This document shows positions 9,232 to 58,230 of a stretch of DNA of 64,000 nt, piece after piece. How positions within the stretch are numbered: position 1 is the first letter of the stretch; each line of letters opens with the position of its first letter. This DNA is from Achromobacter aloeverae (GTDB lineage Bacteria > Pseudomonadota > Gammaproteobacteria > Burkholderiales > Burkholderiaceae_B), in contig NZ_PYAL01000002.1 in assembly GCF_004121055.1 (NCBI RefSeq), forward strand, positions 434,001-498,000. The letters run 5' to 3'. The translations under genes and the position numbers were made by a program. The notes under the pieces are model-generated. The model searched no databases. It was not told the DNA's origin and saw nothing but the letters and a program-made list of their open reading frames with translations.

Positions 9232-10446
9232 ATGACCACACCTGATACCCCGCGCCGGTCGCTTGCCCGGCCCGTCCTGCTGATTGCCGGCCTGTTGCTG
9301 ATCGCCAGCAACCTGCGCGCTCCCGTTACCGGCCTGGCGCCGATACTCGGCGTTCTGCAGGCACACTACGACCTGTCGCCCGCGCAGGCTGGCATGCTCA
9401 CCACGCTGCCCTTGCTGGCCTTCGGGCTGATCTCTCCCTTCGCTGCCTTGCTGGCCCGCGAATACGGGTTGGAGCGCACCTTGTTCGGGGCCATGTGGCT
9501 GGTGGCGGGCGGCCTGCTGGTGCGTTCGGCGGGTCCGCTGTGGTGCCTGTACCTGGGCACGGCGATATGCGGTTCCAGCATCGCCGTGGGCAACGTGCTG
9601 CTGCCCAGCCTGGCGAAGCGGGACTTCCCGGCGCGGGTGCCCATCGTCATGGGGGCGTGCGCGCTGGCCATGGGCGGTATCGCCGCGCTGGTCTCGGCTT
9701 GCGTGGTGCCGATGGCGGCGGCGTGGGGATGGCAGGGGGCCCTGGCCGGCACCCTCGTCTTCCCGGTGGCCGCATTGGCCGTCTGGACCAGCCAGCTGGG
9801 CGCGCATACGGGCCCGGCCCGGGGCACGGCAAGCCCGCCGCATGGCGGTCCCGTCTGGCATTCCGCGCTGGCCTGGCAGGTGACGCTGTTCATGGGCATC
9901 AATTCCTTGCTGTACTACGTTTTGATCAGCTGGCTGCCGACCATCCTCGCCGATGTCGGCTATACGCCGGCCGAGGCGGGAGCGGTGCATGGCGGCATGC
10001 AGTTCGCGTCCGCCGTGCCGGGCATCGTGCTGGCGCCCCTGGTGGGACGCATGAAGGACCAGACCCGCGTGGCGGCGGCCATGGCGCTGATGATGGCTAT
10101 CGGCCTGCTGGGCCTGCTGTTCGTGCCCGCGGGCGCCACCGCGTGGGCCCTGTTGTATGGCTTCGGCTCCGGCGGCGGCATCTTGCTGGCGCTGATCTTC
10201 ATGGGCTTGCGTGCGTCGAATGCCCGCCAGGCGGCGGCCCTGTCCGGCATGGCGCAGGGCGTGGGCTACACCTTGGCCGCTTGCGGGCCCACCTTGACCG
10301 GCAAGCTGCACGACCTGGCCGGCAATTGGACCATCCCCTTGTCGATAGGCGTGGTCCTGTCCCTGGCGATGGCGGCTTTCGGCGCGCTGGCGGGCAGGGC
10401 GCGCCAGATCGGGGACCGTCCGGTGGGCGCCAAGCGCATGGCTTGA
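9232..10446 (+). CDS. CynX/NimT family MFS transporter
   Basis: 404 residues with about 12 hydrophobic segments. The family motif SNLRAPVTGLAPILG occurs near residue 25, just after the first membrane span, and a second-half SGMAQGVGYTLAACGP motif near 340. This matches the cyanate/2-nitroimidazole branch of the major facilitator superfamily (CynX, YeaN/NimT), inner-membrane proteins that export or import small anions and drugs. Divergent from an AraC regulator that probably controls it. Its stop codon (10444-10446) lies in the first unit of a 17-bp tandem repeat. Confidence 0.85.
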   Translation: MTTPDTPRRSLARPVLLIAGLLLIASNLRAPVTGLAPILGVLQAHYDLSPAQAGMLTTLPLLAFGLISPFAALLAREYGLERTLFGAMWLVAGGLLVRSAGPLWCLYLGTAICGSSIAVGNVLLPSLAKRDFPARVPIVMGACALAMGGIAALVSACVVPMAAAWGWQGALAGTLVFPVAALAVWTSQLGAHTGPARGTASPPHGGPVWHSALAWQVTLFMGINSLLYYVLISWLPTILADVGYTPAEAGAVHGGMQFASAVPGIVLAPLVGRMKDQTRVAAAMALMMAIGLLGLLFVPAGATAWALLYGFGSGGGILLALIFMGLRASNARQAAALSGMAQGVGYTLAACGPTLTGKLHDLAGNWTIPLSIGVVLSLAMAAFGALAGRARQIGDRPVGAKRMA

Positions 10447-10484
10447 GCAAGCGTTGGGCTTGAACAAGCGCATGGCTTGAACTG
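10434..10484. repeat. 17-bp tandem repeat, three units, spanning a stop codon
   Basis: Units at 10434-10450, 10451-10467 and 10468-10484 share the pattern gcgcatggcttgarcaa with few mismatches. The first unit holds the end of the CynX/NimT-like gene and its TGA. Confidence 0.85.
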
Positions 10485-10500
10485 CCTGGCTGGTTCAGCC

Positions 10501-10560
10501 GCGAACCGCTCGGCCCGCGAACCGCCCAGCGTGCGAACCGCTCAGCGTGCGAATGGCGCG
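10501..10560. repeat. 16-bp tandem repeat at the 3' end of the MmgE/PrpD gene
   Basis: Units start at 10501, 10517, 10533 and (partial) 10549, each beginning gcgaac or gcgaat; units 2 and 3 differ at one base. The stop codon of the minus-strand gene (10542-10544) lies in unit 3. Confidence 0.85.
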
Positions 10561-11933
10561 AAGTCCACCTTTGCACTGTCGAACACGTGGTCGATGTGCG
10601 CCAGCAGGGCCTCGCTATCGGCCGGCGCCAGGCCGCCATAGGCGCAGTTCGCGTGGAATTTGCGCGTCAGGTCGTCGTCGCTGAGCGGATGATCGACGCC
10701 GCCCTTGAAATAGCCCTGCCGGAACTCATGCACCTCGCCATCGGCCATGGTCACTTTCACATGCCCGGTGAACTGCTTCGGATAAGGGTTGGCGGGGTCG
10801 ACCACGTACTTCACCTTGCGCGCCAGCGCGACGATGGCCGGCGCCTTGACGATTTCGTCGTCGTATTCGCCCAGGCCGGCGTCGCCGCGCAGGATGGCCA
10901 CCGCGATGGCGTAGGGCACGCTGAACTTGGCGGCGTAGCCGTTGGGCGGGGCCTGCTTCAGGTCCAGGGGTTCCCACAGCCGGTGCAGCACGCCCTCGGC
11001 CGCTTCGCATTCGATGGCGGCGATGGCGGCCGGGTCCAGGCCCAGCTTGCCGAACTCACGCGCGCAGTCGATGTAGGGATGGCACATGGTGCCGCAGGCA
11101 TACGGCTTGAAGGCGATGGTGGGCCAGATCCATTTTTCACCGAAGCCGTCCAGCATGGCGGTGAAATCACCCTCCAGGGTGTTCGCGAAACCATGGAAGA
11201 CGCCGTGGCTGCCCTCGAATACCGTGCGCGGGCCCTTGAATCCGCCCATGGCCAGGCGCACCGCGCGATAGCCCGATTGCGCGGCCCAGCCGGGATGCAG
11301 GCGCTTGGTCCAGGAACCGTCGGCCAGGTATTCGATGATGCCGGACGCCAGGCTGCCGGCGATGCCGAAGGCATCGGTCAGTTGCTGGGCGCTCAGGCGC
11401 AGGGCCGCGCCGATGCCCGCCACCGCGCCGAAGACGCCGAACACCGCGGTCGGATGAAAGCCCGCCTTGTGGACCTTGGTCGGCGCGACGGCGCACAGGC
11501 GGCACATGACTTCCGCGCCGACGGCCAGGCCGCGCAGGAAATCCTGCCCGCCAAGGCCATGGCGTTCGGCGGCGGCCAGCAGCGCGGGCACGATGACCAC
11601 GCCGGCGTGCACGGGACCGCCTTCGTAGGTATCGTCGAAATCCTCCCCGTGCGCCGCGGTGCCGTTGACAAAGGCCGCGCCTTCGGCGCCCAGGCGCCGC
11701 GCATGGCCGAAGACCGTGCAAGGACCGTCCTGGTCCAGGGCGTCCAGCGCGGCACGCACATAGGGCTGCGCGCGCGCGGCCACCGCGATGCCGGCGATGT
11801 CCAGCAGCATGCGGCGGCCGGTGGCGCGCGCATCGCGTGATGATTCAGGTGATGATTCGGGGCGCGCGTTCACGATGACTTGCGCAAGGCGCTGCGACAC
11901 GGAGACTTCGGGTACGGGGTGCTTATCGGACAT
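10542..11933 (-). CDS. MmgE/PrpD family protein (2-methylcitrate dehydratase-like)
   Basis: 463 residues, the standard family length. MmgE/PrpD proteins include 2-methylcitrate dehydratase, cis-aconitate decarboxylase and iminodisuccinate epimerase, so the fold does not fix the reaction. Typical stretches are the helical N-terminal domain with FVNGTAAHGEDFDDTYEGG, the internal GSLASGIIEYLADGSWTKRLHPGWAAQ motif (shown here in two parts, about residues 190-220), and YACGTMCHPYID. AGGA lies 9 bases before the ATG. It is followed after 34 bases by a Bug receptor gene upstream on the same strand, a common pairing in Bordetella-like genomes that suggests uptake and dehydration or isomerisation of a carboxylic acid. 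Confidence 0.88.
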   Translation of the reverse strand: MSDKHPVPEVSVSQRLAQVIVNARPESSPESSRDARATGRRMLLDIAGIAVAARAQPYVRAALDALDQDGPCTVFGHARRLGAEGAAFVNGTAAHGEDFDDTYEGGPVHAGVVIVPALLAAAERHGLGGQDFLRGLAVGAEVMCRLCAVAPTKVHKAGFHPTAVFGVFGAVAGIGAALRLSAQQLTDAFGIAGSLASGIIEYLADGSWTKRLHPGWAAQSGYRAVRLAMGGFKGPRTVFEGSHGVFHGFANTLEGDFTAMLDGFGEKWIWPTIAFKPYACGTMCHPYIDCAREFGKLGLDPAAIAAIECEAAEGVLHRLWEPLDLKQAPPNGYAAKFSVPYAIAVAILRGDAGLGEYDDEIVKAPAIVALARKVKYVVDPANPYPKQFTGHVKVTMADGEVHEFRQGYFKGGVDHPLSDDDLTRKFHANCAYGGLAPADSEALLAHIDHVFDSAKVDFAPFAR

Positions 11934-15798: not shown

Positions 15799-15988
15799 CC
15801 TCGCGGCGCGGGCCCGCGGGGCCGGCGCGATCGTTGCGTCCAATGCAAGCCTGGACTGCAAACTTGTCAATTTTCAAATGGATGGGGGTTATTTAAGCTG
15901 GGGCCTGCCGTATATGCAGCCGTATCCGTCATGCAGCCGTATCGCAGTCGCGTGGATCGGGACGGCTAGTTGTCGATGGAGGCCTTTT
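15799..15988. other. 190-base gap with a 17-bp direct repeat
   Basis: Holds a 17-bp near-duplication (15914-15930 and 15931-15947, first 12 bases identical) and an AT-rich patch around 15860-15900 that may contain the promoter of the next gene. GGAGG at 15978-15982 is the ribosome site of that gene. Confidence 0.5.
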
Positions 15989-18915: not shown

Positions 18916-18939
18916 TTTTCCCAAGTTTTTTCCCAAGTT
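18916..18939. repeat. perfect 12-bp tandem duplication
   Basis: ttttcccaagtt occurs at 18916-18927 and again at 18928-18939, upstream of the Old Yellow Enzyme gene. Confidence 0.8.
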
Positions 18940-19024
18940 TCGTTCAAGGCGCGCCCGGTTCCAGGGTGAAGACTGCCCACGGCGCGGCTTGGTACTCCCA
19001 TTTCCTGAGATTTACTGGATCAAG

Positions 19025-20140
19025 ATGCCCGCTCTATTCACTCCCTTTTCCTTGAAGGACGTCACCCTGCGCAACCGCATCGCCGTGCCGCCCATGTGCC
19101 AATACCGCGCCGTCGACGGCATGGTCAATGAATGGCACGACGCCCACTACGCGGGCCTGGCGCGCGGCGGCGCGGGACTGGTGATCATCGAAGCCACGGC
19201 GGTGTCGCCGGAGGGCCGCATTACCCCGGGCTGCACGGGCTTGTGGAACGACGCCCAGGCGCAAGGCATGGCCCGCATCGCCGCGCGCATCAAGGCGGCG
19301 GGCGCGACGCCCGGCATCCAGATCGGGCACGCAGGCCGCAAGGCCAGCGCCAATCTGCCCTGGGAAGGCGACGATCACATTGCCGATGGCGACCCGCGCG
19401 GCTGGACGACCATTTCGCCATCCGCGCTGGTCTTCGGCGGCGGCCTGTCCAAGATGCCGCGCGAGATGACCCTGGCCGATATCGACCGCGTGCGTGGGGA
19501 TTTCGTGGCTGCGGCGCGCCGGGCGCGCGATGCCGGTTTCGAGTGGCTGGAATTGCACTTCGCGCACGGTTACCTGGCGCAGAGCTTCTTTTCGGCGCAT
19601 GCCAACCAGCGTACGGACATGTACGGCGGCAGCGCCGAAAACCGCGGCCGCTTCCTGCTGGAGACGCTCGCCGCCGTGCGTGAGGTGTGGCCGGAGAACC
19701 TGCCGCTGACCGCGCGCTTCGGCGTCATCGAGTTCGATGGCCGCGACGAGCAGACCCTGGCCGAGTCGATCGAACTCGTGCGCAAGATGCACGCGGGCGG
19801 CCTGGACATGCTGAACGCCAGCATCGGTTTTTCGACCATCGAAGGCCGTACGCCCTGGGGGTCCGGCTTCCTGGCGCCGGTGGCCGCCCGGGTGCGGCAG
19901 GAGACCGGCATGCCGGTGGCGTCGGGCTGGTGCATGGACGATCCGCAAGTGGCCGAACGCGCGATCGCCGACGGGCAGATGGACCTGGTCATGATCGCGC
20001 GCGCGCACCTGGCCAATCCGCACTATCCGTATGCCTTGGCATTGGCGCTGGGAAAGGAAGATCCGGCCTGGGTGCTGCCGCCGTCCTATGCGCACTGGCT
20101 GTCGCGCTACAAGGGGCCGGGCAAGGGCGCGGCGCAGTAA
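19025..20140 (+). CDS. NADH:flavin oxidoreductase, Old Yellow Enzyme (YqjM/XenA class)
   Basis: 371 residues from the ATG at 19025 (MPALFTPFSLKDVTLRNRI); a TTG/ATG extension upstream is not supported. FMN-dependent ene-reductase of the thermophilic-like class: VPPMCQYRAV carries the regulatory cysteine, QIGHAGRKA the flavin and substrate histidine, and the pattern HFAHGYLAQSFFSAHANQRT with MYGGSAENR follows. It should reduce activated C=C bonds or nitro groups with NAD(P)H in the cytoplasm. Divergent from the LysR gene. Its stop lies in a degenerate 12-bp tandem repeat. Confidence 0.92.
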   Translation: MPALFTPFSLKDVTLRNRIAVPPMCQYRAVDGMVNEWHDAHYAGLARGGAGLVIIEATAVSPEGRITPGCTGLWNDAQAQGMARIAARIKAAGATPGIQIGHAGRKASANLPWEGDDHIADGDPRGWTTISPSALVFGGGLSKMPREMTLADIDRVRGDFVAAARRARDAGFEWLELHFAHGYLAQSFFSAHANQRTDMYGGSAENRGRFLLETLAAVREVWPENLPLTARFGVIEFDGRDEQTLAESIELVRKMHAGGLDMLNASIGFSTIEGRTPWGSGFLAPVAARVRQETGMPVASGWCMDDPQVAERAIADGQMDLVMIARAHLANPHYPYALALALGKEDPAWVLPPSYAHWLSRYKGPGKGAAQ

Positions 20141-20154
20141 GCGGCGCGGCAAGC
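20131..20154. repeat. 12-bp tandem duplication spanning a stop codon
   Basis: ggcgcagtaagc (20131-20142) is followed by ggcgcggcaagc (20143-20154), with a weaker third copy after that. The first copy contains the TAA of the Old Yellow Enzyme gene. Confidence 0.55.
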
Positions 20155-20167
20155 GGCGCCGCGCGCC

Positions 20168-21544: not shown

Positions 21545-21602
21545 GGTGCGTACCTGGGACAATTTTTTGATTGTCATAGTTTACGCCGGTAGGCTGGGCG
21601 CC

Positions 21603-21626
21603 ATCACGTCATCACCTCATCACCTC
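21603..21626. repeat. 8-bp direct repeat, three units
   Basis: atcacgtc, atcacctc, atcacctc in direct succession just before the GGAG ribosome site of the thioesterase gene. Confidence 0.7.
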
Positions 21627-27305: not shown

Positions 27306-28283
27306 ATGTACCCCGCTTATTCGAGATCCATTGCAGGATCGTTCCTGCTGGCCGCCTGCCTGCTCATCGGCGGCAATGCACTGGCCGCCGACGCGACGCC
27401 GGACCAGGTCTACCAGGCCGCACAGGCCGGAAACTATCGTCAGGCCCAGGAGATGATGGACCAGATCCTGCGCGACCATCCGAATAGCGCCAAGGCGCAT
27501 TTCGTGGAAGCGGAGCTGCTGGGCAAGCAGGGCAAGCTGCAGCAGGCCCAGGAGGAGTTGAGCACCGCGCTGCGCCTGGATCCCAGCCAGCGCTTTGCCA
27601 AGCCCGGCGCCGTGGATGAACTGCGTTCGCGGATCGCCTCGGGTAGCGCATCGCGGGCGGGCGGCGCGTCCGGCGGCATTCCCTGGGGCATGGTGCTGGG
27701 CATCGCGGGGCTGGCGATCATCGTGTCGCTGGTCCTGCAAGCCCGCCGCCGCGCCGCCTATGCCGCGGCGGGGCCCGGTCCCTATGGCCAGGGCGGCGGC
27801 GTGCGCACGTCATCGCCCTATGGCGGTCCGCCGCCTGCGGGCCCCCAAGGCGGATATGGCTATCCCGGCGGGCCTGGCTCTGCCCCTGGCTCCGTGGCCG
27901 GCGGCGCGGGCTCCGGCATCTTGGGCGGCCTCGCTACCGGGGCCGCCGTCGGCGCAGGCATGGTCGCGGGCGAGGCGCTGATGAATCGCGTATTGCACGG
28001 CGGGGCCACGGCGTCGGGCAATGTCGCCGACGGCGGCGTGGCGCGCGACGCCGGCGCACACGATGCCACGCAAGCAGGCTATGACATGGGCGGCAGGGAC
28101 TTCGGCCTGCGCGATGCGGATTCATGGGACGATGACGACCCCACCCGCAAGCTGAAGAACGGCGACGATGGCGGTGGCCAGACCTGGAATATCGACTATC
28201 CCTGGAACAATGGCGACGCGTCGGGCGACGGCGGTGATTCCTGGGATGGCGGTGGCGGCGGATCCGACGACGATTGGACCTGA
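27306..28283 (+). CDS. TPR-containing, Gly-rich membrane protein of unknown function
   Basis: 325 residues from the ATG at 27306, which has GGGAGGG six bases upstream; an in-frame ATG at 27291 would cover that site. A signal peptide (about residues 1-27, NALAADA) precedes two TPR-like helix pairs (DQVYQAAQAGNYRQAQEMMD, then AELLGKQGKLQQAQEELSTA). Next come a Gly/Ser linker, a membrane segment (about 128-150, WGMVLGIAGLAIIVSLVLQ) and a long low-complexity tail rich in Gly, Asp and aromatic residues. The tail carries a Gly-zipper-like stretch (GGLATGAAVGAGMVAGEAL). Probably an inner-membrane protein; role unknown. Confidence 0.7.
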   Translation: MYPAYSRSIAGSFLLAACLLIGGNALAADATPDQVYQAAQAGNYRQAQEMMDQILRDHPNSAKAHFVEAELLGKQGKLQQAQEELSTALRLDPSQRFAKPGAVDELRSRIASGSASRAGGASGGIPWGMVLGIAGLAIIVSLVLQARRRAAYAAAGPGPYGQGGGVRTSSPYGGPPPAGPQGGYGYPGGPGSAPGSVAGGAGSGILGGLATGAAVGAGMVAGEALMNRVLHGGATASGNVADGGVARDAGAHDATQAGYDMGGRDFGLRDADSWDDDDPTRKLKNGDDGGGQTWNIDYPWNNGDASGDGGDSWDGGGGGSDDDWT

Positions 28284-28311: not shown

Positions 28312-28353
28312 CTTATGGCAGGCCACTTATGGCAGGCCACTTATGGCAGGCCA
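28312..28353. repeat. perfect 14-bp tandem repeat, three units
   Basis: cttatggcaggcca at 28312-28325, 28326-28339 and 28340-28353, starting 29 bases after the stop of the TPR protein gene. Confidence 0.9.
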
Positions 28354-28446
28354 CGCATCATCGGCCGCTGCAGTCCGTCGCATTGCCGCGGCTGGGCCCG
28401 GAATGTTCGAATAGACCTACCGGTTCACCGACGAATAGCCTGAGGA

Positions 28447-29942: not shown

Positions 29943-32132
29943 ATGCCTCAACTGACGCCCCTGACCCCGCGCTCTTCCTGGACCGCGCTGACGACCACCG
30001 ACCAGGACTGGGAGAACGCGGCCCCCGCCTTGCTGGGCACCCTGTTGGCCCATTGCCACCTGATTCGCGGATTCGAGGAAACTGTCCTGGACCTGGCCGC
30101 GCGAGGACTGGTGCACGGACCGGCGCATTCCAGCATCGGGCAGGAGGGCGGCGCGGCGGGATCCATCGTGACGCTGCGCGCGCAGGACGGCGTCAACGGC
30201 TCGCATCGCGGCCATCATCAGTTCCTGTCGAAGTCGCTCGCTTACCTCTGCCCCGACGGCATCGACCCGCGCGCCGAACTGGCGCCCGCTGTCCAGGGCT
30301 TGCTGCAACGGACGCTGGCCGAGATCCTGGGCCTGGCGCAAGGGTTCTGCAACGGCCGGGGCGGTTCCATGCATTTGCGCTGGACCGAAGCGGGGGCCCT
30401 GGGTACCAATGCGATCGTCGGCGGCGGCGTTCCCATGGCGGCGGGACAGGCCTGGGCACAGCGCCATGCCGGCAGCGACGCGGTGATGATCAGCTATTTC
30501 GGCGACGGCGCGGTGAATATCGGCTCGGTGCTGGAGACGATGAACCTGGCGGCCGCCTGGAAGCTGCCCTTGTGTTTCTTCATCGAGAACAACCGTTACG
30601 CGGTATCCACCCATGTGGAGGAAAGCACCGCCGAGCCGCGCCTTTCCGCACGCGGCCTGGGCTTCAATATACCCAGCTGGCAGGTCGACGGCATGGACCC
30701 GTTGGCGGTCCACCTGGCAATGCAGGCGGCGCTGGATCATATGCGCGCCGGCAAGGGACCCACGGTGATCGAGGCCGATGTCTACCGGTTTTTTCACCAG
30801 AACGGACCCTATGCGGGCAGCGCCTTCGGGTACCGGACCAAGGAAGAGGAGCAGGCGTGGCGCGCCCGCGATCCGCTGGTCCTGATGGCGGTCCGCATGC
30901 AGGCGCGCGGCCTGATCGATGAGGCGGGCGTGCAGGCCTTGCGCGAGCGCGTGCGGCAGTCGATGCGCAATGCCGTGGCGGCATTGACCGAGGACGATCC
31001 CCAGGCCGGGGAGGGCAAGCGCCGCATCCGTCCGGCCTTGTGGCCGTCCACCGATTTTCGCGACGTCGGCATCCTGGGCGACCTGTCGGAGATGCAGGGC
31101 TTGCGTTATGCGGATCACGATAGCGGCCTGGTGCGGCAGGCCGAGCGCCCATTCATCGATGTGGTGGCCGATGTCATGGACAGGCGCATGAAGCAGGATC
31201 CGGGCATCGTGGTGATGGGCGAGGACGTGCACCGCCTGAAGGGCGGAACCAACGGCGCCACGCGCGGGCTCGCCCAACGCTATCCGGACCGCTGCCTGGG
31301 AACGCCCATCAGCGAGAATGCCTTCGTGGGGCTGGCGGGCGGCATGGCGCTGGATGGCCGCTATCGGCCGGTGGTGGAGTTCATGTATCCGGACTTCATG
31401 TGGGTGGCGGCCGACCAGGTGTTCAACCAGATCGGCAAGGTACGCCATATGTTCGGCGGCCGCGACGACGTGCCGCTGGTGCTGCGCACGAAAGTCGCGA
31501 TGGGGACGGGATATGGGTCCCAGCATTCGATGGACCCAGCGGGGATTTTCGCGACGTGTCCGGGATGGCGCATCGTGGCGCCGTCCAATCCCTACGACTA
31601 TGTGGGATTGATGAACTCGGCATTGCAATGCCGCGATCCCGTGCTGGTCATCGAGCACGTCGATTTGTACAACAGCCAGGGACCCGGCCCGGTCGACGAC
31701 TATGACTATTTCCTGCCGGTGGGCAAGGCCGCGCTGCGGCGCAGCGGTCCCGACGTGACGGTGGTCGCCTACCTGTCGATGGTGGGGCATGCCGCCGAGG
31801 CGATGGACCGCTGCGGCCTGCGTGGCGACCTGGTGGACCTGCGCTGGCTGGACCGCGCCAGCCTGGATTGGGAGACGCTGGGCGCCAGCATACGCAAGAC
31901 CAATAACGTGCTGATCGTCGAGCAGGGCGCGCGCGGGACATCCTATGGCGGGTGGCTGGCGGACGAGATCCAGCGCCGCTACTTCGATTGGCTCGATCAA
32001 CCCGTGCAACGGGTGACGGGCGGGCTGGCGGCGCCCAGCATCTCCAAGGTGCTGGAACGGGCGGCCGCCGCGCGCACCGACGAGGTCGTCGCCGCGCTGC
32101 GCGAAGTCATGGCCAACCAGGGAGCCGCGTGA
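29943..32132 (+). CDS. fused E1 alpha-beta, thiamine-diphosphate 2-oxoacid/acetoin dehydrogenase
   Basis: 729 residues. The first 370 or so form the E1 alpha part with the thiamine-diphosphate motif YFGDGAVNIGSVLETMN (about 184-200) and FIENNRYAVST. From about 395 the E1 beta part follows (VVMGEDVHRLKGGTNGATRG, PISENAFVGLAGGMAL, ending with SYGGWLADEI). Acetoin dehydrogenase and branched-chain oxoacid dehydrogenase E1 are usually separate alpha and beta chains, so this is a fusion form. It should cleave a 2-oxoacid or acetoin-like compound and pass the acyl group to the E2 encoded next. The stop overlaps the E2 start by one base. Confidence 0.9.
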   Translation: MPQLTPLTPRSSWTALTTTDQDWENAAPALLGTLLAHCHLIRGFEETVLDLAARGLVHGPAHSSIGQEGGAAGSIVTLRAQDGVNGSHRGHHQFLSKSLAYLCPDGIDPRAELAPAVQGLLQRTLAEILGLAQGFCNGRGGSMHLRWTEAGALGTNAIVGGGVPMAAGQAWAQRHAGSDAVMISYFGDGAVNIGSVLETMNLAAAWKLPLCFFIENNRYAVSTHVEESTAEPRLSARGLGFNIPSWQVDGMDPLAVHLAMQAALDHMRAGKGPTVIEADVYRFFHQNGPYAGSAFGYRTKEEEQAWRARDPLVLMAVRMQARGLIDEAGVQALRERVRQSMRNAVAALTEDDPQAGEGKRRIRPALWPSTDFRDVGILGDLSEMQGLRYADHDSGLVRQAERPFIDVVADVMDRRMKQDPGIVVMGEDVHRLKGGTNGATRGLAQRYPDRCLGTPISENAFVGLAGGMALDGRYRPVVEFMYPDFMWVAADQVFNQIGKVRHMFGGRDDVPLVLRTKVAMGTGYGSQHSMDPAGIFATCPGWRIVAPSNPYDYVGLMNSALQCRDPVLVIEHVDLYNSQGPGPVDDYDYFLPVGKAALRRSGPDVTVVAYLSMVGHAAEAMDRCGLRGDLVDLRWLDRASLDWETLGASIRKTNNVLIVEQGARGTSYGGWLADEIQRRYFDWLDQPVQRVTGGLAAPSISKVLERAAAARTDEVVAALREVMANQGAA

Positions 32133-33529
32133 TGCCCACCTTGATACGCATGCCGGAGATTTCGGCGAATGCCGCCGCCGCGCAATTGGTCGAGTGGCTG
32201 GTGGAGGAGGGCGCTGCGGTGGCGGCTGGTGACGCCGTGGCCAGTATCGAGACCGACAAGGCCGTCGTGGACCTGGAGGCCGGCGCGGCGGGGACGCTGG
32301 CGCGCCGCCTGGCGCGCGCCGGGGAGCAGGTGGCGGTGGGCGCCGCCGTGGCGGTGGTGCTGACGCCGGGAGAGTCGGCGGATGCGATGGAGGCCTGGCT
32401 CGCGCAGCAAGCGGGAGGCGGCAATGGGCACGCAGTCGCGCCCGCGGCTACCTCCGCGGCTGTATCCGTGCCGCTGGCCCCTGCAATGGAATCGACATTG
32501 GCGGCACCCGCAACCACACCCGTGGCACCAGCACCTGCACCGGCACCCCCACCGGCACCTGCACCGGCACCCCCACCGGCACCTGCCCCGGCAAGCCATG
32601 CCTCGACGCCATCGTCACAGGCTCCGGCCCCGACGCCGGAGCGCTTCTTCGCCAGTCCCCTGGCGCGCAAGCTCGCCCGGCAGGCCGGCATCCCGCTGGA
32701 GGCATTGCAGGGCAGCGGTCCGGCGGGCCGGGTGATCAAGCGGGATATAGAGCGGGCCCAGGCAGAACGGGACCAGGCGGAACAGGCCGGGTCCGTCGGC
32801 CGGAACGCGGCCGCCGCCGCGTTCGAAACCCTCCCTCACTCCCCCATGCGCGCCACCATCGCGCGGCGGCTGACCGAAAGCAAACAGCACATCCCCCATT
32901 TCTACCTGCGCGGGACCTGCCGCATGGAGGCCTTGTTCGCCATGCGCGAACAACTGAATCATCGCGAGCATGGCGGGCACGACGAGGACAGCCACGCCGT
33001 CCGCAAGTTCTCGGTCAACGATTTCATCATCAAGGCCGCCGCCTGCGCCTTGCGGGACTTGCCCGACACCAATGTCATCTGGACGGAGACGGCCATGCAG
33101 CGCTATCGCCAGGTCGACATCGCGGTCGCCGTCGCCACGCCCGGCGGGCTGATCACGCCCGTGTTGCACGCGGTGGAATCCATGTCGTTGACGCAGCTGA
33201 GCGCGACCATGGCCGAGCTGGCGTCCCGCGCTCGCGCGTCCCGCCTGCTGCCCCGCGAGTACCAGGGAGGAACGTTCGCCATCAGCAACCTGGGCATGTA
33301 TGGCGTGACGGAATTCGCCGCGATCATCAACCCGCCTCAGTCGGCGATCCTGGCCGTGGGCGCCAGCAATCGTGTTCCGGTGGTCGACGCCGACGGCCGG
33401 CTCGATACGGGTGTGGTCATGACGTATACGCTATCCGTCGATCACCGCGCGATCGACGGCGCTTTGGCGGCCAAGTGGATGGGACGGTTCCAGCAGTACA
33501 TGGAACGCCCGGCGACCATGCTTGTATGA
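32132..33529 (+). CDS. E2 dihydrolipoamide acyltransferase
   Basis: 465 residues from the ATG at 32132, with GGGAG upstream. Domains in order: lipoyl domain with the modified lysine K43 (SIETDKAVVDLEAG), an Ala/Pro linker encoded by a 24-bp repeat, an E3-binding domain (SPLARKLARQAGIPLEALQG, about 175-210), and the catalytic domain ending with the HxxxDG active site (H438, D442). Partner of the fused E1. No E3 lipoamide dehydrogenase gene lies in the window, so the complex must borrow one. Confidence 0.92.
   Translation: MPTLIRMPEISANAAAAQLVEWLVEEGAAVAAGDAVASIETDKAVVDLEAGAAGTLARRLARAGEQVAVGAAVAVVLTPGESADAMEAWLAQQAGGGNGHAVAPAATSAAVSVPLAPAMESTLAAPATTPVAPAPAPAPPPAPAPAPPPAPAPASHASTPSSQAPAPTPERFFASPLARKLARQAGIPLEALQGSGPAGRVIKRDIERAQAERDQAEQAGSVGRNAAAAAFETLPHSPMRATIARRLTESKQHIPHFYLRGTCRMEALFAMREQLNHREHGGHDEDSHAVRKFSVNDFIIKAAACALRDLPDTNVIWTETAMQRYRQVDIAVAVATPGGLITPVLHAVESMSLTQLSATMAELASRARASRLLPREYQGGTFAISNLGMYGVTEFAAIINPPQSAILAVGASNRVPVVDADGRLDTGVVMTYTLSVDHRAIDGALAAKWMGRFQQYMERPATMLV
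32531..32578 (+). repeat. 24-bp coding tandem repeat in the E2 linker
   Basis: Two perfect copies (32531-32554 and 32555-32578) and the start of a third encode an alternating Ala/Pro stretch between the lipoyl and E3-binding domains. In-frame copy change would lengthen or shorten the swinging arm. Confidence 0.85.
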
Positions 33530-42004: not shown

Positions 42005-42064
42005 AAGGGCGACCCCAAGGACGACCCCAAGGGCACCCCAAAGGGCAACCCAAAGGGCGACACA
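42005..42064. repeat. 12-bp tandem repeat, five units, before an SDR gene
   Basis: Units of the form aagggcgacccc start at 42005, 42017, 42029, 42041 and 42053, with one to three changes each. The last ends 11 bases before the ATG at 42076, so it lies in the leader of that gene. Confidence 0.85.
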
Positions 42065-46825: not shown

Positions 46826-46979
46826 TTATTGCCGGACCGGCAACCGGATCGCCGTCGCCGCGGCCGCCGCTGTGGTTGTCGCTCTGGTTGTCGCCATGCC
46901 GGAAGGCCTGGCGCGCCAGGCTCCCACGCCCGTCATCGCCCGGCGCCGCGCACGCGGCACGGGCGTCGGTGTACCACGC

Positions 46980-46999
46980 TACAAGGGAATACAAGGGAA
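46980..46999. repeat. 10-bp duplication carrying the ribosome site
   Basis: tacaagggaa occurs at 46980-46989 and 46990-46999, followed by aggacg and the ATG at 47006. Each copy holds an AAGGGAA purine tract. Confidence 0.75.
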
Positions 47000-47005: not shown

Positions 47006-47818
47006 ATGAAGATCATTACCGGTGTAACCCGGGTCTACGGCATCCTGGCCGACCCCATCCACCACGTGCAGACGCCCCAGCGGATGAACGAGCATTTCGC
47101 CGCGCTGGACCACGATGGCGTCCTGGTGCCGCTGCATGCGGGCGCGGATACGCTGGCGCGCGTGGTGGAGGGATTGCGCGGGCTGCGCAACCTGGGCGGC
47201 GTCATCGTCACCGTGCCGCACAAGACCGCCATCGTCGAGCTGTGCGACGAGGTCACGGACAGCGCGCGCCTGATCGGCGCGGCCAACGTGGTGCGGCGCG
47301 AGGCCGATGGCAGGCTGGTCGGACATATGCTCGATGGCGAAGGGTTCGTCGGCGGCCTGCGCGATGCCGGCGTGGATCCGCGCGGCCGCAGCGCTTACCT
47401 GGCGGGGGCGGGCGGCGCGGCCAACGCCATCGCCTTCGCGCTGGTGCAGGCCGGCGTGTCGCGCCTGACCATCGCCAACCGCACCCGTGCCAAGGCGGAG
47501 GACCTGAAGCAACGCCTGGCGCGCCTGGACCCTGCCGCCGTGGTCAGCGTGGGCACGCCCGATCCCTCCGGCCACGACCTGGTGGTCAACGCGACCTCGC
47601 TGGGCCTGCGCGAAGACGACCCGCTGCCGCTCGACACGACGCGGCTCGCGCCCGGCCAGCGGGTATGCGAGATCATCATGCAGCCGCGTGTAACGGCGCT
47701 GCTGCAAGCGGCCGCGCAGCGCGGCTGCGCCATCCACCATGGCGCACCCATGCTGGCCGCGCAGATCGCCCTGATGGCGCGCTTCCTGGGCGTGCGCGGG
47801 CCGACGGCCGTGGCTTGA
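47006..47818 (+). CDS. AroE-like dehydrogenase with atypical substrate site
   Basis: 270 residues from the ATG at 47006; AAAGGA lies just upstream. The fold is that of shikimate/quinate dehydrogenase: catalytic lysine K73 in IVTVPHK, N94 in GAANVV, D110, NADP-binding GAGGAAN (134-140) and NRT (158-160). The N-terminal motif that binds shikimate is usually SxSPxxHN, but here it is HVQTPQRMN (residues 20-28), and the usual NTD before D110 is MLD. It therefore probably acts on a different hydroxy or keto acid. Next gene is a GMC oxidoreductase, 10 bases on. Confidence 0.8.
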   Translation: MKIITGVTRVYGILADPIHHVQTPQRMNEHFAALDHDGVLVPLHAGADTLARVVEGLRGLRNLGGVIVTVPHKTAIVELCDEVTDSARLIGAANVVRREADGRLVGHMLDGEGFVGGLRDAGVDPRGRSAYLAGAGGAANAIAFALVQAGVSRLTIANRTRAKAEDLKQRLARLDPAAVVSVGTPDPSGHDLVVNATSLGLREDDPLPLDTTRLAPGQRVCEIIMQPRVTALLQAAAQRGCAIHHGAPMLAAQIALMARFLGVRGPTAVA

Positions 47819-47828: not shown

Positions 47829-49415
47829 ATGGCGGATTTCGATTTCATCATCGCGGGCGGCGGCACGGCCGGCTGCATCCTGGCCAACCGCCTGACGGCC
47901 GACGGCCGCCATCGCGTGTTGCTGATCGAAGCGGGCGAGGACGCCGCCAGCATGTGGATAGGGATCCCCGCCGGTTTCAGCAAGCTGCTGGTCGACCCGC
48001 GCTTCAACTGGCGCTTCGCCACCGAGCCGGAGGAGAACACGCTCGGCCGCGTGATTTCCGTGCCGCGCGGCAAGGGCCTGGGCGGTTCGACGCTGATCAA
48101 CGGCGGCATCTACGTGCGCGGCCAGCGGCAGGACTACGACGCCTGGGCCGCGGCGGGCGCCACGGGCTGGAGCCATGCGGACGTCGAGCCTTATTTTCGC
48201 CGCCTGGAGTGCTATGCGCAGGGCGGTCCGTCGCGCGGCAAGGACGGACCCATGCACCTGACCCAGGTGCGCGAGCGCTACCCGATCGCCGAGGCCTTTC
48301 TCGCCGCCGCGCGCGAGGACGGGCAACGCATCAACGAGGACTACAACGGCGACAGCCAGGAAGGCTTCGGCTATTACCAGGTGCTGCAAAAGGACGGCCG
48401 CCGCTGGAGCGCGGCCGATGGCTACCTGAAGCCGGCGCGTGGCCGCGCCAATCTGCAAGTGGAGTCCGATGCGCGGGTGCTGCGGCTGGTGTTCGAGGGC
48501 AAACGTTGCGTGGGGGTGGTGTACCGCCAGCGGGGCCAGGACGTCACCGTCCGGGCCGCGCGCGAGACCTTGCTGTGCATGGGCGCGGTGCAGTCGCCGC
48601 AAATGCTGGAACTGTCCGGCATCGGCGATCCGCAACGCCTGCGGGCGCTGGGCATCGCGCTGGTGCATGCGGCGCCGCAGGTGGGCGAGAACTATATCGA
48701 TCACTACGCCACGCGCATGAATTGGCGTGTCAAGGGAACGGTGACCTTGAACGAGATGTCGCGCGGCTGGCGGCTGGCGCGCCAGGTCGGGCTCTACTAC
48801 GCCGCCCGGCGCGGCATCCTGACCTTGGGGACGGGCCTGGTGCATGGCTTCATCAAGTCGCGGCCGGACATGGCCGAGCCCGACGTGCAGTATTTCTTCG
48901 TGCATGCCAGCTATGCCAACGCGGCCGAGCGCATACTCGACCGTCATCCCGGCATGACGCTGGGCGTGGCGCAGTTGCGGCCGCGATCCGTGGGCAGTAT
49001 CCACGCCAGGACGCCCGATCCCGCCGATGCGCCGGCCATCCGGCCCAACTTCCTTGCCACCCAGGTCGATCGCGATGCGCTGGTGCATGGCATGGAGGTG
49101 GCGCGCCGCATCGTCGGCCAGCCCGCGATGGCGCCGTACATCGATGCCGAGACCAGCCCCGGCGCGGCGGTGCGCACCTATGACGAGTGGCTGGACTTCG
49201 CGCGGCGCAACGGGCAGACCATCTACCACCCGATCGGCACTTGCCGCATGGGCGAGGACGACGCGGCGGTCACCGATCCGCGCCTGCGCGTGCGCGGCGT
49301 GCAGGGCTTGCGCGTAGTCGATGCGTCGGTGATGCCCAGCATGGTCTCGGGCAACACGCAGGCCGCGGTGATGATGGTGGCGGAGAAAGCCGCGGACCTG
49401 ATCCTGGCGGACTGA
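47829..49415 (+). CDS. GMC family FAD oxidoreductase (choline dehydrogenase-like)
   Basis: 528 residues. FAD motif IIAGGGTAGCILANRL (residues 7-22), GMC signature around GKGLGGSTLINGGIYVRG, a second signature near GAVQSPQMLELSGIGDP, and the active-site region YHPIGTCRMG with the final SGNTQAAVMMVAEKAADLI. Such enzymes oxidise alcohols, feeding electrons to the respiratory chain or O2. Likely co-transcribed with the AroE-like gene. Its stop (49413-49415) lies in the second unit of a 14-bp tandem repeat. Confidence 0.9.
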   Translation: MADFDFIIAGGGTAGCILANRLTADGRHRVLLIEAGEDAASMWIGIPAGFSKLLVDPRFNWRFATEPEENTLGRVISVPRGKGLGGSTLINGGIYVRGQRQDYDAWAAAGATGWSHADVEPYFRRLECYAQGGPSRGKDGPMHLTQVRERYPIAEAFLAAAREDGQRINEDYNGDSQEGFGYYQVLQKDGRRWSAADGYLKPARGRANLQVESDARVLRLVFEGKRCVGVVYRQRGQDVTVRAARETLLCMGAVQSPQMLELSGIGDPQRLRALGIALVHAAPQVGENYIDHYATRMNWRVKGTVTLNEMSRGWRLARQVGLYYAARRGILTLGTGLVHGFIKSRPDMAEPDVQYFFVHASYANAAERILDRHPGMTLGVAQLRPRSVGSIHARTPDPADAPAIRPNFLATQVDRDALVHGMEVARRIVGQPAMAPYIDAETSPGAAVRTYDEWLDFARRNGQTIYHPIGTCRMGEDDAAVTDPRLRVRGVQGLRVVDASVMPSMVSGNTQAAVMMVAEKAADLILAD

Positions 49416-49439
49416 TCCTGGCGGACTAATCGTGGCAGG
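49398..49439. repeat. 14-bp tandem repeat spanning a stop codon
   Basis: ctgatcctggcgga occurs at 49398-49411 and 49412-49425, with a degenerate third copy to 49439. The first copy is coding (Leu-Ile-Leu-Ala); the second contains the stop of the GMC gene. Confidence 0.85.
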
Positions 49440-50393: not shown

Positions 50394-50441
50394 CGCTCAC
50401 TTGACCGCTCACTTGATCGCGTACTTGATCCCTTACTTGAC
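50394..50441. repeat. 12-bp tandem repeat, four units, spanning a stop codon
   Basis: Units start at 50394, 50406, 50418 and 50430, pattern cgctcacttgac, with increasing changes towards the gene. The NodT-type gene's TAA (50433-50435) is in the last unit. Confidence 0.85.
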
Positions 50442-51971
50442 GTTGACCGGCAAGGACACGGGGCCGCCGGACGCCTGGCCCGCATCCGGCCCTTGCGCCG
50501 GCTTGTCCGCCGCTTCCTGCTCCCAGCCCCCACCCAGCGCCAGGAACAGCTTGATCTGGTCTTCGACCACTTCTGCCTGCGAGGCGGCCAGCGCGCTTTC
50601 GTTGTTGGCCAGCGTGCGCTCCGCGTCCAGCACGGTCAGGTAGTCCGTCTTGCCGTACTGGTACAGCTTGCGGGCCTGTCCGGCCGCTTCGGCGCTCTGG
50701 TCGCGGGCGGCCTTCAAGGCGTCGTCGCGGTCCAGTTCGCGAGCGTAGACGGTTAGCGCGCTTTCGGTTTCGCGCAAGGCGTTGAGCACGGTCGCATCGA
50801 AGCGGGCATAGGCGGCCTTGGTACTGGCTTCGGCCTCCGCGATGCGGGCCTGGACCGCGCCCGTGTTGGGGATGGTCCACGAAATCAGCGGACCGATGCT
50901 GTACCCGAAGCTGCCCTTGCCGCCGAAGCGGTCGAGGAAGCTGCCGGAGTCGGCCGACAGGCCCAGCGTGATCTTGGGGTAGAGGTCTCCCGTGGCCACG
51001 CCGATGCGCGCGGTGGCGCCGGCCAGCGCACGCTCCGCTTCCCGGATGTCGGGGCGGCGGCGCAGCAGGGCCGCGCCATCGCCAACCGGAATGGGCTGCT
51101 TGAGCTCGGGCGGCGTCTTGCATTGCGCGAGCTGCTGCGGGAACTGGTTGGGCGTTTCGCCGGTCAGCGTGGCAAGGCGGTACAAGGCGACCCGGCGCCG
51201 GGCTTCCAGCGGCGGCAGGGCGGCGCGCAACTGCTCCAGCTGGCCGCGGGCGCGGGTGACGTCCAGGGCCGTGCCGCGGCCCAGGTTCTGCAGCTTCTCG
51301 TTGACCTTGACCGATTCGCTCTGTACATCCACCGAGTGCTGCGCCGAGGCCAGCTGCATGCCGGCCGTGCAGGCGGTGGCATAGGCCAGCGCTGTCTGCG
51401 CGGCGACGTTGGCGCGCATGGCGTCGTAGGCGGCTTGCACCGACGCCTGGTCGGCGTTGGCGGCCTCGATGGCGCGGCGGATCTGGCCGACCAGGTCGAC
51501 CGTGTACGAGACGCCGGCGCCCATGCTGTAGAACCATTCGCTCGGAGGATCGTAGCCGGGCGCGAGCTCCTGGAAGCCGGAAGGGTGGCCGAACCAGGGC
51601 TGGGCGTTGACATTGAACGAGGGCTGCGTCGCCGCTTGCGCCTGGCGCGTGACGGCGGCCGCGCGGTCCATGTTGGCGGCGGCCACGCGCAAGTCCGTAT
51701 TGGCGTCCAGCGCCTTGGTGATCAGCGCGTCGAGCTGCGGATCGTCATACAGGCGCCACCATTTGCCGGGCACGGCGGCCTGGGCGTAGGCGGCATTGTC
51801 GGCGCCGCTGAACGGCGCGGAGGCTTCGGGCCGGTGCACGGCGGCGTCGGCCGGCACCTTGTAGTCGGGGCCAACGGTGGTGCATCCCGCCAGGGCGGCG
51901 GCGACCAGCAGCATCGGCAGCCTGGGGAGACGAGCGGTATGTAAGGTATGAAAGACGCGAAGGGGACTCAT
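50433..51971 (-). CDS. NodT/OprM family outer-membrane efflux lipoprotein
   Basis: 512 residues. A lipoprotein signal peptide ends with LAGC (lipid-modified C30). Two outer-membrane efflux repeats follow, with long coiled-coil helices (for example SVDVQSESVKVNEKLQNLGR and ELDRDDALKAARDQ). RRRPDIREAERALAGATARIG in the second half is the typical family stretch, shown here in part. Trimeric channel that completes a tripartite pump with the HlyD and FUSC proteins of this operon. Its end lies in the 12-bp repeat. Confidence 0.92.
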   Translation of the reverse strand: MSPLRVFHTLHTARLPRLPMLLVAAALAGCTTVGPDYKVPADAAVHRPEASAPFSGADNAAYAQAAVPGKWWRLYDDPQLDALITKALDANTDLRVAAANMDRAAAVTRQAQAATQPSFNVNAQPWFGHPSGFQELAPGYDPPSEWFYSMGAGVSYTVDLVGQIRRAIEAANADQASVQAAYDAMRANVAAQTALAYATACTAGMQLASAQHSVDVQSESVKVNEKLQNLGRGTALDVTRARGQLEQLRAALPPLEARRRVALYRLATLTGETPNQFPQQLAQCKTPPELKQPIPVGDGAALLRRRPDIREAERALAGATARIGVATGDLYPKITLGLSADSGSFLDRFGGKGSFGYSIGPLISWTIPNTGAVQARIAEAEASTKAAYARFDATVLNALRETESALTVYARELDRDDALKAARDQSAEAAGQARKLYQYGKTDYLTVLDAERTLANNESALAASQAEVVEDQIKLFLALGGGWEQEAADKPAQGPDAGQASGGPVSLPVNVK

Positions 51972-52985: not shown

Positions 52986-52989
52986 GGTG

Positions 52990-55871: not shown

Positions 55872-55901
55872 ATTATAAGTTAACTATTAGGATCCTATCA
55901 A
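55872..55901 (-). promoter_or_regulatory. near-consensus promoter with palindromic operator for the efflux operon
   Basis: On the minus strand, TTGATA (55901-55896) and TATAAT (55877-55872) are separated by 18 bases. The palindrome TAGGATCCTA (55888-55897) overlaps the -35 end and spacer, and AGTTAACT (55878-55885) lies next to the -10: a likely MarR repressor site. The -10 ends 7 bases before the ATG. Confidence 0.7.
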
Positions 55902-56383
55902 TTAGTTTTTTATCTAATTCTGAGAGATTCCTGAATAGGGGGACTGGCTCCTCGCCACCGGGCGAGGGAGCACGGGCGGCCGGCGGTGCCGGCCGCCCGT
56001 CGCTGGTGAAGAGGGGGCGTAGGTCCTTGCCTCCGGAGGAGTACAGGCGGCGGGGGGAGCGGTCGCCCGTTGCTGGGTGAAGAGGGGCCGTAGGTCTTTG
56101 CCTCCGGAGGAGAGGACAGGCGGCGGGTGGAGCGGCCGCCCGTTGCTGGGGAATAGGGGACGTAGTTCGTTGGCTCAAAGGAGCAGCAGACGGTGCGGGG
56201 AGGGGGCGGCGTGGGGCATGGCCGGCGTGGGGTATGCCGGAATCGATGGTGCGGTGCATAAAAAAACATTGGCTCAATGGCCGAGGATCCAGCAGAATCA
56301 CGGCGGCCGGGTTTGCCGGCATGCAGCATGTATCCCTGAACACCGCCTTGATCCCTGCCTTGAACACTGTCGCACTGGAAATT
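55902..56383. other. 482-base gap with a degenerate 70-73-bp tandem repeat
   Basis: Between the marR promoter and the VOC gene. It contains the repeat at 55994-56206 and then 177 bases with no recognised feature other than the weak ribosome site of the VOC gene. Confidence 0.5.
55994..56206. repeat. 70-73-bp tandem repeat, three units
   Basis: Units begin with cgcccgt at 55994, 56064 and 56137. Each continues with ctggtgaaga-type sequence, gtaggtccttgcctccggag and a G-rich end; the third is diverged. A weaker copy may precede the first (about 55930-55993). Confidence 0.8.
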
Positions 56384-56821
56384 ATGGACACCCCCGTCGC
56401 CGCACCCCCGAATGCCTTTCACCTTGCCCTGAATGTGTTGGACCTGGACGAAGCGCGCCGCTTTTATGGCGATGCCCTGGGGTGCCGGGAAGGCCGCAGC
56501 ACGGACACCTGGGTGGATTTCGACTTCTTCGGGCACCAGTTGTCCCTGCACCTGGGCGAGCCCTTGAAGACCGCGCGCACCGGCAAGGTGGGCGACAAGC
56601 TGGTGCCCATGCCGCATTTCGGCCTGGCCTTGATGCTGCCCCAATGGCAGGCCCTGGCCGAGCGCCTGAAGGCGAACAGCCGCATCGATTTCGTGCTGGC
56701 GCCCCAGGTACGCTTCGAAGGCGAGCCAGGCGAGCAATGGACCATGTTCTTCATGGACCCGTTCGGCAACCCCATCGAAGTCAAGGGTTTCCGCACGCTG
56801 GAAGCGCTCTACGCCATCTGA
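56384..56821 (+). CDS. VOC family (glyoxalase-like) protein
   Basis: 145 residues from the ATG at 56384. The frame is open upstream to 56234, but MDTPVAAPPNAFHLALNVLD is the usual beginning. Marks: FHLALNVLDLDEARRFYGDA, WVDFDFFGHQLSLHL, and the C-terminal FFMDPFGNPIEVKGF. A metal-dependent vicinal-oxygen-chelate enzyme or binding protein; substrate unknown. It is convergent with the enoyl-CoA hydratase gene, 54 bases apart. Confidence 0.85.
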   Translation: MDTPVAAPPNAFHLALNVLDLDEARRFYGDALGCREGRSTDTWVDFDFFGHQLSLHLGEPLKTARTGKVGDKLVPMPHFGLALMLPQWQALAERLKANSRIDFVLAPQVRFEGEPGEQWTMFFMDPFGNPIEVKGFRTLEALYAI

Positions 56822-56875
56822 ACGCGCGCGCCATCCCGCGCGTTCGATGGCGAGCGCGTGGGCCCGCGATATCCC

Positions 56876-57667
56876 TCAGCGGCCGCCAAAGCGCGGCTTG
56901 CGCTTCTCGGCGAATGCCGCCTTGCCCTCCCGATAGTCCTCGCTGTCGTAGCAGGCGCCGATCAAGGCATGCGCGGCGTCCATGTCGCGTTCGCCCGGCG
57001 CTTTCTCCAGTTCCAGGAAGACCCGCTTCAATGCCCTGATGGTCAACGGCGCGTTTTCCGCGATGGCGTCCGCATAGGCACGTACCCGCGCCTCCAGGCC
57101 GTCCGGCTCCACCACTTCATGCACCAGGCCCGCCGCCAGCGCCTCGGCCGCGTCATAGCGGCGCCCGGTGAAGTAGAGGTCACGCGCGCGGCTGGCGCCG
57201 ATCAGCCGGTTCAAGCGTACCTGGCCCTGGTAGCCATAGCCCAGGCCCAGCCTGGCGGCGGGAATGGCGAAGACCGAGTCCGCGGAGCAGATGCGGATGT
57301 CGCAGCTTGCCGCGTAGTCCATGCCGCCGCCCATGCAATAGCCCTTGATCATGGCGATGGTCGGCTTCGTGCAGTTGTAGACGGCGTCGTACGAGCCCTG
57401 GCTGATCTCCTGGTACTTGCGGTTGGCTTCGGGATTCGCGCGCACGGCGTCGAAGTTGGAGATATTCGATCCGGCGATGAAGGACCGGTCGCCCGCTCCC
57501 TTGACGATGACGACGCGGATCTCGGGATCGGCGTCGAACGCCGCGATGACGGGCGGCACGGCCGCCGACATTTCCAGGGAGACCGCGTTGTGCTTCTCCG
57601 GATGGTTGAAGACCAGCCAGCCAATGGCGCCGGTTTTGTGGGACAGGATGTGTTGCGATGTCGTCAT
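56876..57667 (-). CDS. enoyl-CoA hydratase/isomerase family protein
   Basis: 263 residues from the ATG at 57665-57667; the frame extends upstream to 58198 but MTTSQHILSHKTGAIGWLVF is the expected start. Crotonase marks: FNHPEKHNAVSLEM, oxyanion-hole segments FIAGSNISNFDAV and MIKGYCMGGGMDYAASCDI, and SVFAIPAARLGLGYGYQG. Last gene of the HyuBA-CoA-transferase operon. Probably hydrates or isomerises the CoA ester made by the CoA transferase. Confidence 0.9.
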   Translation of the reverse strand: MTTSQHILSHKTGAIGWLVFNHPEKHNAVSLEMSAAVPPVIAAFDADPEIRVVIVKGAGDRSFIAGSNISNFDAVRANPEANRKYQEISQGSYDAVYNCTKPTIAMIKGYCMGGGMDYAASCDIRICSADSVFAIPAARLGLGYGYQGQVRLNRLIGASRARDLYFTGRRYDAAEALAAGLVHEVVEPDGLEARVRAYADAIAENAPLTIRALKRVFLELEKAPGERDMDAAHALIGACYDSEDYREGKAAFAEKRKPRFGGR

Positions 57668-57681
57668 GGGATGTTCCAGAT

Positions 57682-58128
57682 TCAAGTGGCGTCGAACGCC
57701 GCCGTGCAGGCTGCGCGCAAGACGGAAGGCATGGGGCGCGGGCGCTTGTCCCCCCGATCGACCCAGACCCAGGTGATGGCGGCGCGCGCGTACGCCACGC
57801 GCTCGTCCGCCGCGTCGCGCAGATCGAAGACCAGGCCCACGCTGCTGTTGCCGACATGGCCGCAGCGCAGGGTCACGGCCAGGCGTGCCGGATAGCCGAC
57901 CGGCGCGCGATAGGAGCAGGCCTGGCTGGCGACCACGGACATCAGCCCGGGGGCCGATCGTCCCAGCGCCAGCGCGGCCGACCATTGCATGCGCGCCTCT
58001 TCCGCGTAGCCCAGTAGGGTCGCGTTGTTGACGTGCCCGTCCGCGTCCAGGTCGCCCCAGCGGACATCCACGTACGCGGTATGCAGCGGCGCCGACAGCG
58101 GGTTGCCGTCGTCGATGATTTTCAGCAT
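57682..58128 (-). CDS. 4-hydroxybenzoyl-CoA-type thioesterase (hotdog)
   Basis: 148 residues. The hotdog marks are YVDVRWGDLDADGHVNNATL (4HBT-type WGDxDxxGHVNN active site with the acidic residue, about 19-38) and YAEEARMQW. It hydrolyses acyl- or aroyl-CoA. 14 bases from the enoyl-CoA hydratase gene and in the same direction. Confidence 0.9.
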   Translation of the reverse strand: MLKIIDDGNPLSAPLHTAYVDVRWGDLDADGHVNNATLLGYAEEARMQWSAALALGRSAPGLMSVVASQACSYRAPVGYPARLAVTLRCGHVGNSSVGLVFDLRDAADERVAYARAAITWVWVDRGDKRPRPMPSVLRAACTAAFDAT

Positions 58129-58193
58129 ATGGCCTCCAGGATGCGGGACGGGGCGAGCGGGACGGGACGCGCAAACGCCGGCCGCTGTCCCGC

Positions 58194-58230
58194 TTCATGT
58201 GTCCCGATTCATGTGTCCCGATTCATATCA
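58194..58230. repeat. 14-bp tandem repeat spanning a stop codon
   Basis: ttcatgtgtcccga at 58194-58207 and 58208-58221, then a degenerate copy. The CoA-transferase stop (58223-58225) is in the third unit; each unit carries TGA on the minus strand. Confidence 0.85.

Follow-up and report, generated by a model that had tools for sequence, protein, structure and literature searches.

Short Tandem Duplications in the Window and in the Genome

The window, the whole 64 kb stretch of Achromobacter aloeverae DNA analysed here, spans C6:434001-498000 of a 6.49-Mb genome of 13 contigs and contains 58 called genes, with short tandem arrays in the gaps between them. Genes are assigned by a codon-usage caller trained on the A. 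aloeverae genome; starts are approximate, and some arrays counted as lying in gaps may be coding. An earlier note on this DNA had listed 16 such direct repeats. Twelve of them (10434, 10501, 18916, 20131, 21603, 28312, 42005, 46873, 46980, 49398, 50394 and 58194) pass the main detector, a lag-match search for periods of 8-20 with a score of at least 9. The remaining four, at 15914, 22947, 27158 and 43835, are weaker partial repeats, absent from the lists of both the detector and Tandem Repeats Finder. The observation itself, that the window holds many short tandem duplications, is confirmed as real. The detector adds a weak array at 59407-59446 and another at 32525-32593. The latter lies in a called gap (32132-32732) but is probably a coding, low-complexity linker, since the open reading frame 31952-33529 runs through it and relatives align as far as 32407.

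The repeats far exceed what base composition produces. Chance levels are set by dinucleotide-preserving shuffles for gaps and by codon shuffles for genes. In the window, 14 arrays are centred in gaps and 11 of these stay entirely within them; 50 shuffles average 0.54, with at most 3. With neighbours merged, 13 arrays are centred in the 6.6 kb of gap, against 0.40 in five shuffles. Coding DNA of the window holds 10 arrays, against 5.4 in codon-shuffled genes.

This abundance extends through the genome. Outside the window, the sample consists of 53 stretches of 20 kb, drawn from contigs C1 and C5-C8 only, with 916 called genes in a total of 1.06 Mb. Their 143.4 kb of gap contain 138 merged arrays, or 9.6 per 10 kb (95% interval 8.1-11.4), against 8.8 arrays in the shuffled sequence; the window, at 19.7 per 10 kb, lies above this average. 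The coding DNA of these stretches contains 242 arrays, against 113 in codon-shuffled genes.

Gap densities in relatives provide a comparison. Five congeners (G001-G005), sampled at 100-240 kb each, together carry 25 arrays in 109 kb of gap, so that A. aloeverae is 4.2-fold richer (p = 2e-14). Individually they reach 1.0, 2.1, 1.3, 3.4 and 4.4 arrays per 10 kb of gap for G001 to G005, and eight further family members, five with the end-joining protein Ku and three without, reach 1.0-5.7. At a stricter score the densities per 10 kb are 5.9 in A. aloeverae, 1.6 in the congeners, 0.7 in Achromobacter, 1.7 in the Caballeronia group and 0.5 in other family members.

Named loci around one efflux gene (63 of 64 used, L041 being left out) yield unmerged hits per 10 kb of 4.8 in Achromobacter (12 loci), 3.1 in the Caballeronia/Paraburkholderia group (33), 1.4 in sphingomonads (8), 5.7 in Variovorax, 3.4 in Iodobacter and 13.8 in LUAb4, where the value represents 2 hits in 1.5 kb. 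Zero hits occur at these loci in HZ34, the Schauerella pair and Erwinia.

A published satellite criterion, a decamer occurring four times within 800 nt (PMC6749651), was re-implemented approximately. It finds nine satellites in 1.12 Mb of A. aloeverae, or 8.0 per Mb, eight of them in gaps, and five in 2.5 Mb of relatives, all coding, with up to 4.7 per Mb in the Caballeronia group. In the portion of that source used here, more than 4 per Mb, a level that A. aloeverae surpasses, is given for 18 of 119 bacteria.

The 4.2-fold gap density over the congeners, together with the lack of a common 5-mer among the units, supports the earlier suggestion of a mutational process in this lineage.

Individual Arrays and Their Counterparts in Relatives

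The arrays of the window gaps are collected in Table 1. Within the 46980 duplication, the sequence AAGGGA looks like a candidate ribosome site. A repeat of a separate size class, a 71-bp unit in three copies (84% matches), occupies 55964-56176 in the 447-bp gap before 56321.

Table 1. Short tandem arrays in the gaps of the window, with their position relative to called genes
Coordinates	Array	Relation to called genes
10434-10482	about 17 bp x 3, diverged copies	holds stop of + gene 9232-10446 (MFS transporter)
10499-10553	16 bp x 3.3	holds stop of - gene 10542-11810 (MmgE/PrpD)
18916-18940	perfect 12-bp duplication, two copies	
20129-20159	12 bp x 2.6	holds stop of + gene 19052-20140 (FMN oxidoreductase)
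21602-21626	8 bp x 3.1	upstream of called gene start
28312-28354	perfect 14-bp unit x 3.1	starts 29 bases past stop of + gene 27306-28283
42005-42061	12 bp x 4.8	upstream of short-chain dehydrogenase gene
46868-46894	12-bp duplication, 2.2 copies	
46980-46999	perfect 10-bp duplication	immediately upstream of called start at 47006
49398-49436	14 bp x 2.8	holds stop of + gene 47829-49415 (GMC oxidoreductase)
50394-50440	12 bp x 4	holds stop of - gene 50433-51914 (outer membrane efflux protein)
58186-58226	14 bp x 2.9	holds stop of - gene 58223-59356 (CoA transferase III)
59407-59446	weak 18-bp array	gap next to that of 58186-58226

Alignment with relatives reveals what lies at the same sites. 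The 12-bp unit duplicated at 18916 is single in G005 and G004 and single but slightly changed in G001. At 42005, where A. aloeverae has a 54-bp array, nothing stands between the aligned flanks in G004 and G005. The convergent stretch 10434-10553 measures 34 bp in G005 and 122 bp here; at 59407 the aligned stretch is 13 bp in G005 and 21 bp in G004 against 42 bp, and at 50394 the two relatives that align are both shorter. At 49398, G004 carries a single copy and a different stop. These one-copy and empty sites indicate that some arrays, at least, arose by insertion within this lineage. At 58186, the gap of G004 carries a 14-bp array as well, with a different sequence, which shows that arrays form independently.

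The lengths of aligned gaps in the window are no more than suggestive. For gaps with an array, the median of the A. aloeverae length minus that of G005, G004 and G001 is 16, 36 and 42 bp (11, 9 and 5 gaps); for gaps without one it is 4, -24 and 13 bp (23, 15 and 8 gaps).

Unit Length, Sequence, and Junctions

At a strict score, 96 arrays of the stretches and the window are distributed over periods of 8 bp (7 arrays), 9 (8), 10 (3), 11 (7), 12 (13), 13 (13), 14 (21), 15 (5) and 16 (4), with the other 15 spread over 3-37. The drop from 14 to 15 bp has p = 0.0025 in a comparison picked after seeing the data, and perfect gap duplications repeat it with 13 at 14 bp and 2 at 15 bp. The lower size limit is not a result, as the main detector begins at 8 bp and the strict-score count demands at least three copies for shorter periods. 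For the window and the stretches combined, periods that are multiples of 3 make up 213 of 252 arrays in coding DNA and 61 of 155 in gaps, which indicates that reading frame is under selection in genes, with little or no such effect in gaps.

The units themselves are unrelated, as the earlier note had stated: no 5-mer stands out in 417 tests, and their guanine-cytosine (GC) content (0.633) is close to that of the gaps (0.619). They fold slightly better than shuffled sequence (mean z -0.31; 30% with z below -1 against about 16% expected). A shared motif or hairpin as the driver of duplication is rejected or left weak, with no 5-mer shared and only a small shift in folding.

Target-site duplications of several transposon families overlap the range of 8-14 bp, and the arrays might accordingly be footprints of a mobile element, duplications left behind after excision. 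This origin is barely plausible, given that unit lengths vary continuously, many arrays have more than two copies, and the units share no 5-mer in a search that took in the units alone and not the borders beyond them.

A second alternative is ordinary slippage between short pre-existing repeats, proceeding at the usual bacterial rate, with more of its products kept here through weak selection on gap length. Arrays with at least 2.8 copies are common (66 of 142 scored), as this model would have it, and a half-period signal, slight in each case, is present in units of period 12 and 14. The junctions speak on both sides. The 61 perfect gap duplications include 16 that have strictly two copies and a period of at least 10; eight of these have no junction homology, four have one base, and four have two or more, two of the last group looking like partly repeated units that are retained in the count. 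Half of the strict duplications, which lack junction homology, speak against slippage. Weak selection on gap length is likewise contradicted by the share of gap in A. aloeverae (143 of 1060 kb), which is not above that of G002 (28.4 of 200 kb) or G005 (20.7 of 140 kb). Slippage as the whole explanation is unlikely, yet it deserves real weight. An origin of the units from heptamers or hexamers is rejected or left weak, with a slight half-period signal at periods 12 and 14.

Arrays at Gene Ends

The six repeats described in the earlier note as containing stop codons all hold the stop of a called gene, and those at 28312 and 43835 start 29 and 21 bases after a called stop. An excess near stop codons is weakly supported. 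A roughly twofold enrichment exists genome-wide in the 60 nt after stops, but it is flat over about 100 nt and forms no peak at the stop. Gap that lies within 60 nt of a stop but near no start contains 39 arrays over 24.9 kb; gap near a start only and far gap together contain 89 over 110.6 kb (p = 6e-4). Gap close to a stop and a start alike (7.8 kb, 10 arrays) is omitted from this test. Over the 53 stretches these classes have densities of 15.7 (stop only), 8.9 (start only) and 7.7 (far) per 10 kb. In the last 400 kb alone the stop excess has p = 0.04. The bias of the window, with 7 arrays in 1.1 kb of stop-only gap, exceeds that of the genome. The direction is the same in the congeners and the Caballeronia group, where numbers are small, and mixed in Achromobacter.

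A distance profile over the first 660 kb, in which one gap base may count from both flanking genes, defines the zone further. Density after stops is 15.5, 19.2, 15.9 and 15.7 per 10 kb out to 100 nt and about 6 thereafter, while the last 30 nt of genes have 3.2. Ahead of starts, the nearest 20 nt have a density of 2.2, and the sequence beyond, up to 200 nt, has 10.5-13.4.

The twofold enrichment might reflect a selected function at gene ends, such as backup stops, protection of the 3' end or transcription termination. Consistent with this, G004 bears its own array at the gene end at 58186, and the next in-frame stop is nearer in array-gene pairs than in control genes (median 19 against 33 codons). 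The remaining evidence runs the other way. The zone is flat, the last 30 nt of genes are not raised, and 99 of the 138 gap arrays fall outside the stop-only class. A further in-frame stop lies within 10 codons in 8 of 29 array-gene pairs, not clearly more often than in the 619 control genes, where it does so in 19.2%. Backup stops are rejected or left weak: among 26 stop-spanning arrays, 7 have a period divisible by 3, no more than expected. The selected role at gene ends that the earlier note had offered is therefore unsupported by the frame of the stop copies, the frequency of second stops, a motif or folding, and a function of this kind is very improbable.

The position of the stop within the arrays has another reading. 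In 18 of 29 array-gene pairs it falls entirely inside the first period, which is the outcome to expect if the survivors are chiefly harmless duplications. Most stop-spanning duplications should leave the protein unchanged. The pattern at gene ends probably reflects tolerance, in that copies there do no harm, rather than function.

Origin of the Arrays

Taken together, the results are best explained by independent, de novo short tandem duplications, arising through a mutational process with higher activity here than in the congeners and filtered by purifying selection. This explanation is probable, though well short of secure. Some duplications would later be amplified to many copies, with ordinary slippage adding or removing copies. 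Gene ends would tolerate them for two reasons: the protein is unaffected when the stop sits in the first copy, and signals are few in 3' flanks. The 20 nt ahead of starts would, by contrast, be protected. With less assurance, the duplications may begin at closely spaced breaks in both strands, from abortive topoisomerase or nick events, whose ends are then filled in and joined again with no need for a pre-existing repeat. The size limit would follow if the DNA stays annealed when nicks are spaced by more than about 14 bp.

Several results weigh against this explanation. At the loose score, period 12 (24 arrays) is favoured over 14 (21), and 15 has 8. Junction homology of at least two bases in four duplications, against 1.2 expected (p = 0.025), is what slippage predicts. 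A melting limit would predict a relation between unit GC and length, and the correlation is slight (rho -0.17, p = 0.07). As read from the sequence, the 49398 duplication changed the end of its protein, whose stop is now supplied, in a shifted frame, by the second copy. At 20129 relatives are similar in length or longer, at 21602 they are nearly equal, and at 28312, 46868 and 46980 they are similar, longer or too different, so insertion is not shown at these five sites. Finally, the intervals of single genomes overlap that of A. aloeverae (8.1-11.4): G078 at 2.1-12.5, G012 at 1.2-8.4 and G005 at 2.0-8.3.

The genes belong on the same side of the balance, as no causal gene is found for the lineage difference. 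Ku-type end joining is encoded, with Ku present in A. aloeverae and the five congeners; Ku as the sole cause fails because those congeners are poor in arrays. Outside the genus, Ku-bearing genomes have 19 arrays in 74.7 kb and Ku-free ones 6 in 43.8 kb (p = 0.22), no clear surplus for the former. Loss of the PolA 5' exonuclease domain, Y-family polymerases, the ExoVII large subunit, RecJ or MutS is not seen, all being present in the six genus genomes. SbcC (PF13558) is found in none of these six (G000-G005). Of 14 control genomes, 12 have it, and among 150 genomes of the order it turns up in 54, with 44 above the cut-off. Its absence as the cause is rejected, as it is common to the genus and not particular to this lineage.

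Topoisomerases were compared as well. In the portion of Bachar et al. (2019, PMC6954433) used here, the Escherichia coli topA R168C allele produces de novo tandem duplications of 2-19 bp independently of repeats. The single PF01131 match in A. aloeverae is topoisomerase III (L216, C7:39369-40706, minus strand; NF006032 1537.7 bits, cut-off 1058), and topA is not found by this search of the genome. Four congeners have one match each and G003 has two, the second shorter. Since each congener has such an enzyme, topoisomerase III is at most a permissive background. Its 5 private substitutions, a further point against, fall within the 4-19 of the congeners' aligned enzymes. A lesion corresponding to that of topoisomerase I is not seen as judged by private changes, with E. 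coli R35 and R168 unmapped on topoisomerase III. A natural duplication mutator, in which a type IA system with topoisomerase III as the only member found would leave paired nicks at most about 14 bp apart that are filled in, rejoined and seed new repeats wherever they escape selection, is a decidedly doubtful elaboration of the de novo duplication model.

Comparison with Known Systems

Among the open-access matches listed (titles and beginnings of abstracts), neither this phenomenon in the genus nor stop-spanning tandem duplications in prokaryotes are described, which is weak evidence. The comparisons below draw on portions of the cited sources.

Several known systems share features with these arrays. 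Abundant intergenic direct repeats in one lineage are also a property of the TAACTGA repeats of Beggiatoaceae (PMC4679880), but those consist of one heptamer, while the units here are unrelated. Borg repeats are likewise independently formed, virtually absent from the compared host genome, and placed in gaps, sometimes starting at a gene end (PMC9879509). They differ in being perfect and A-enriched, with about half within genes and example units of 18-21 nt (PMC9879509). In A. aloeverae, by contrast, copies often differ, units match the GC content of the gaps, and the excess is mainly in gaps.

Bacterial variable-number tandem repeats and satellites are a further parallel, being tandem arrays whose abundance depends on the species (Subirana and Messeguer 2019, PMC6749651). 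Repeat lengths of 12, 14 and 16 nt occur in the satellites of Burkholderia mallei and pseudomallei; these derive from microsatellites of 6-8 nt and form families (PMC6749651), whereas the units here have no shared motif and only a slight half period.

The topA R168C mutator resembles this system in its short head-to-tail duplications, with no common motif in either (PMC6954433). It is a laboratory allele with hotspots in coding reporters (PMC6954433), whereas here a natural lineage has accumulated diverged, multi-copy arrays. That source states that the birth of tandem repeats from unrepeated DNA remains unknown. With about four times the density of its congeners, few units longer than 14 bp and several sister sites that lack the array, A. 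aloeverae provides a natural system for separating seeding from later slippage. Repeats at stop codons need no function, as a neutral duplication model predicts them. If the topoisomerase mutator were true, the lineage would parallel the laboratory topA mutator in nature and generate new minisatellites directly.

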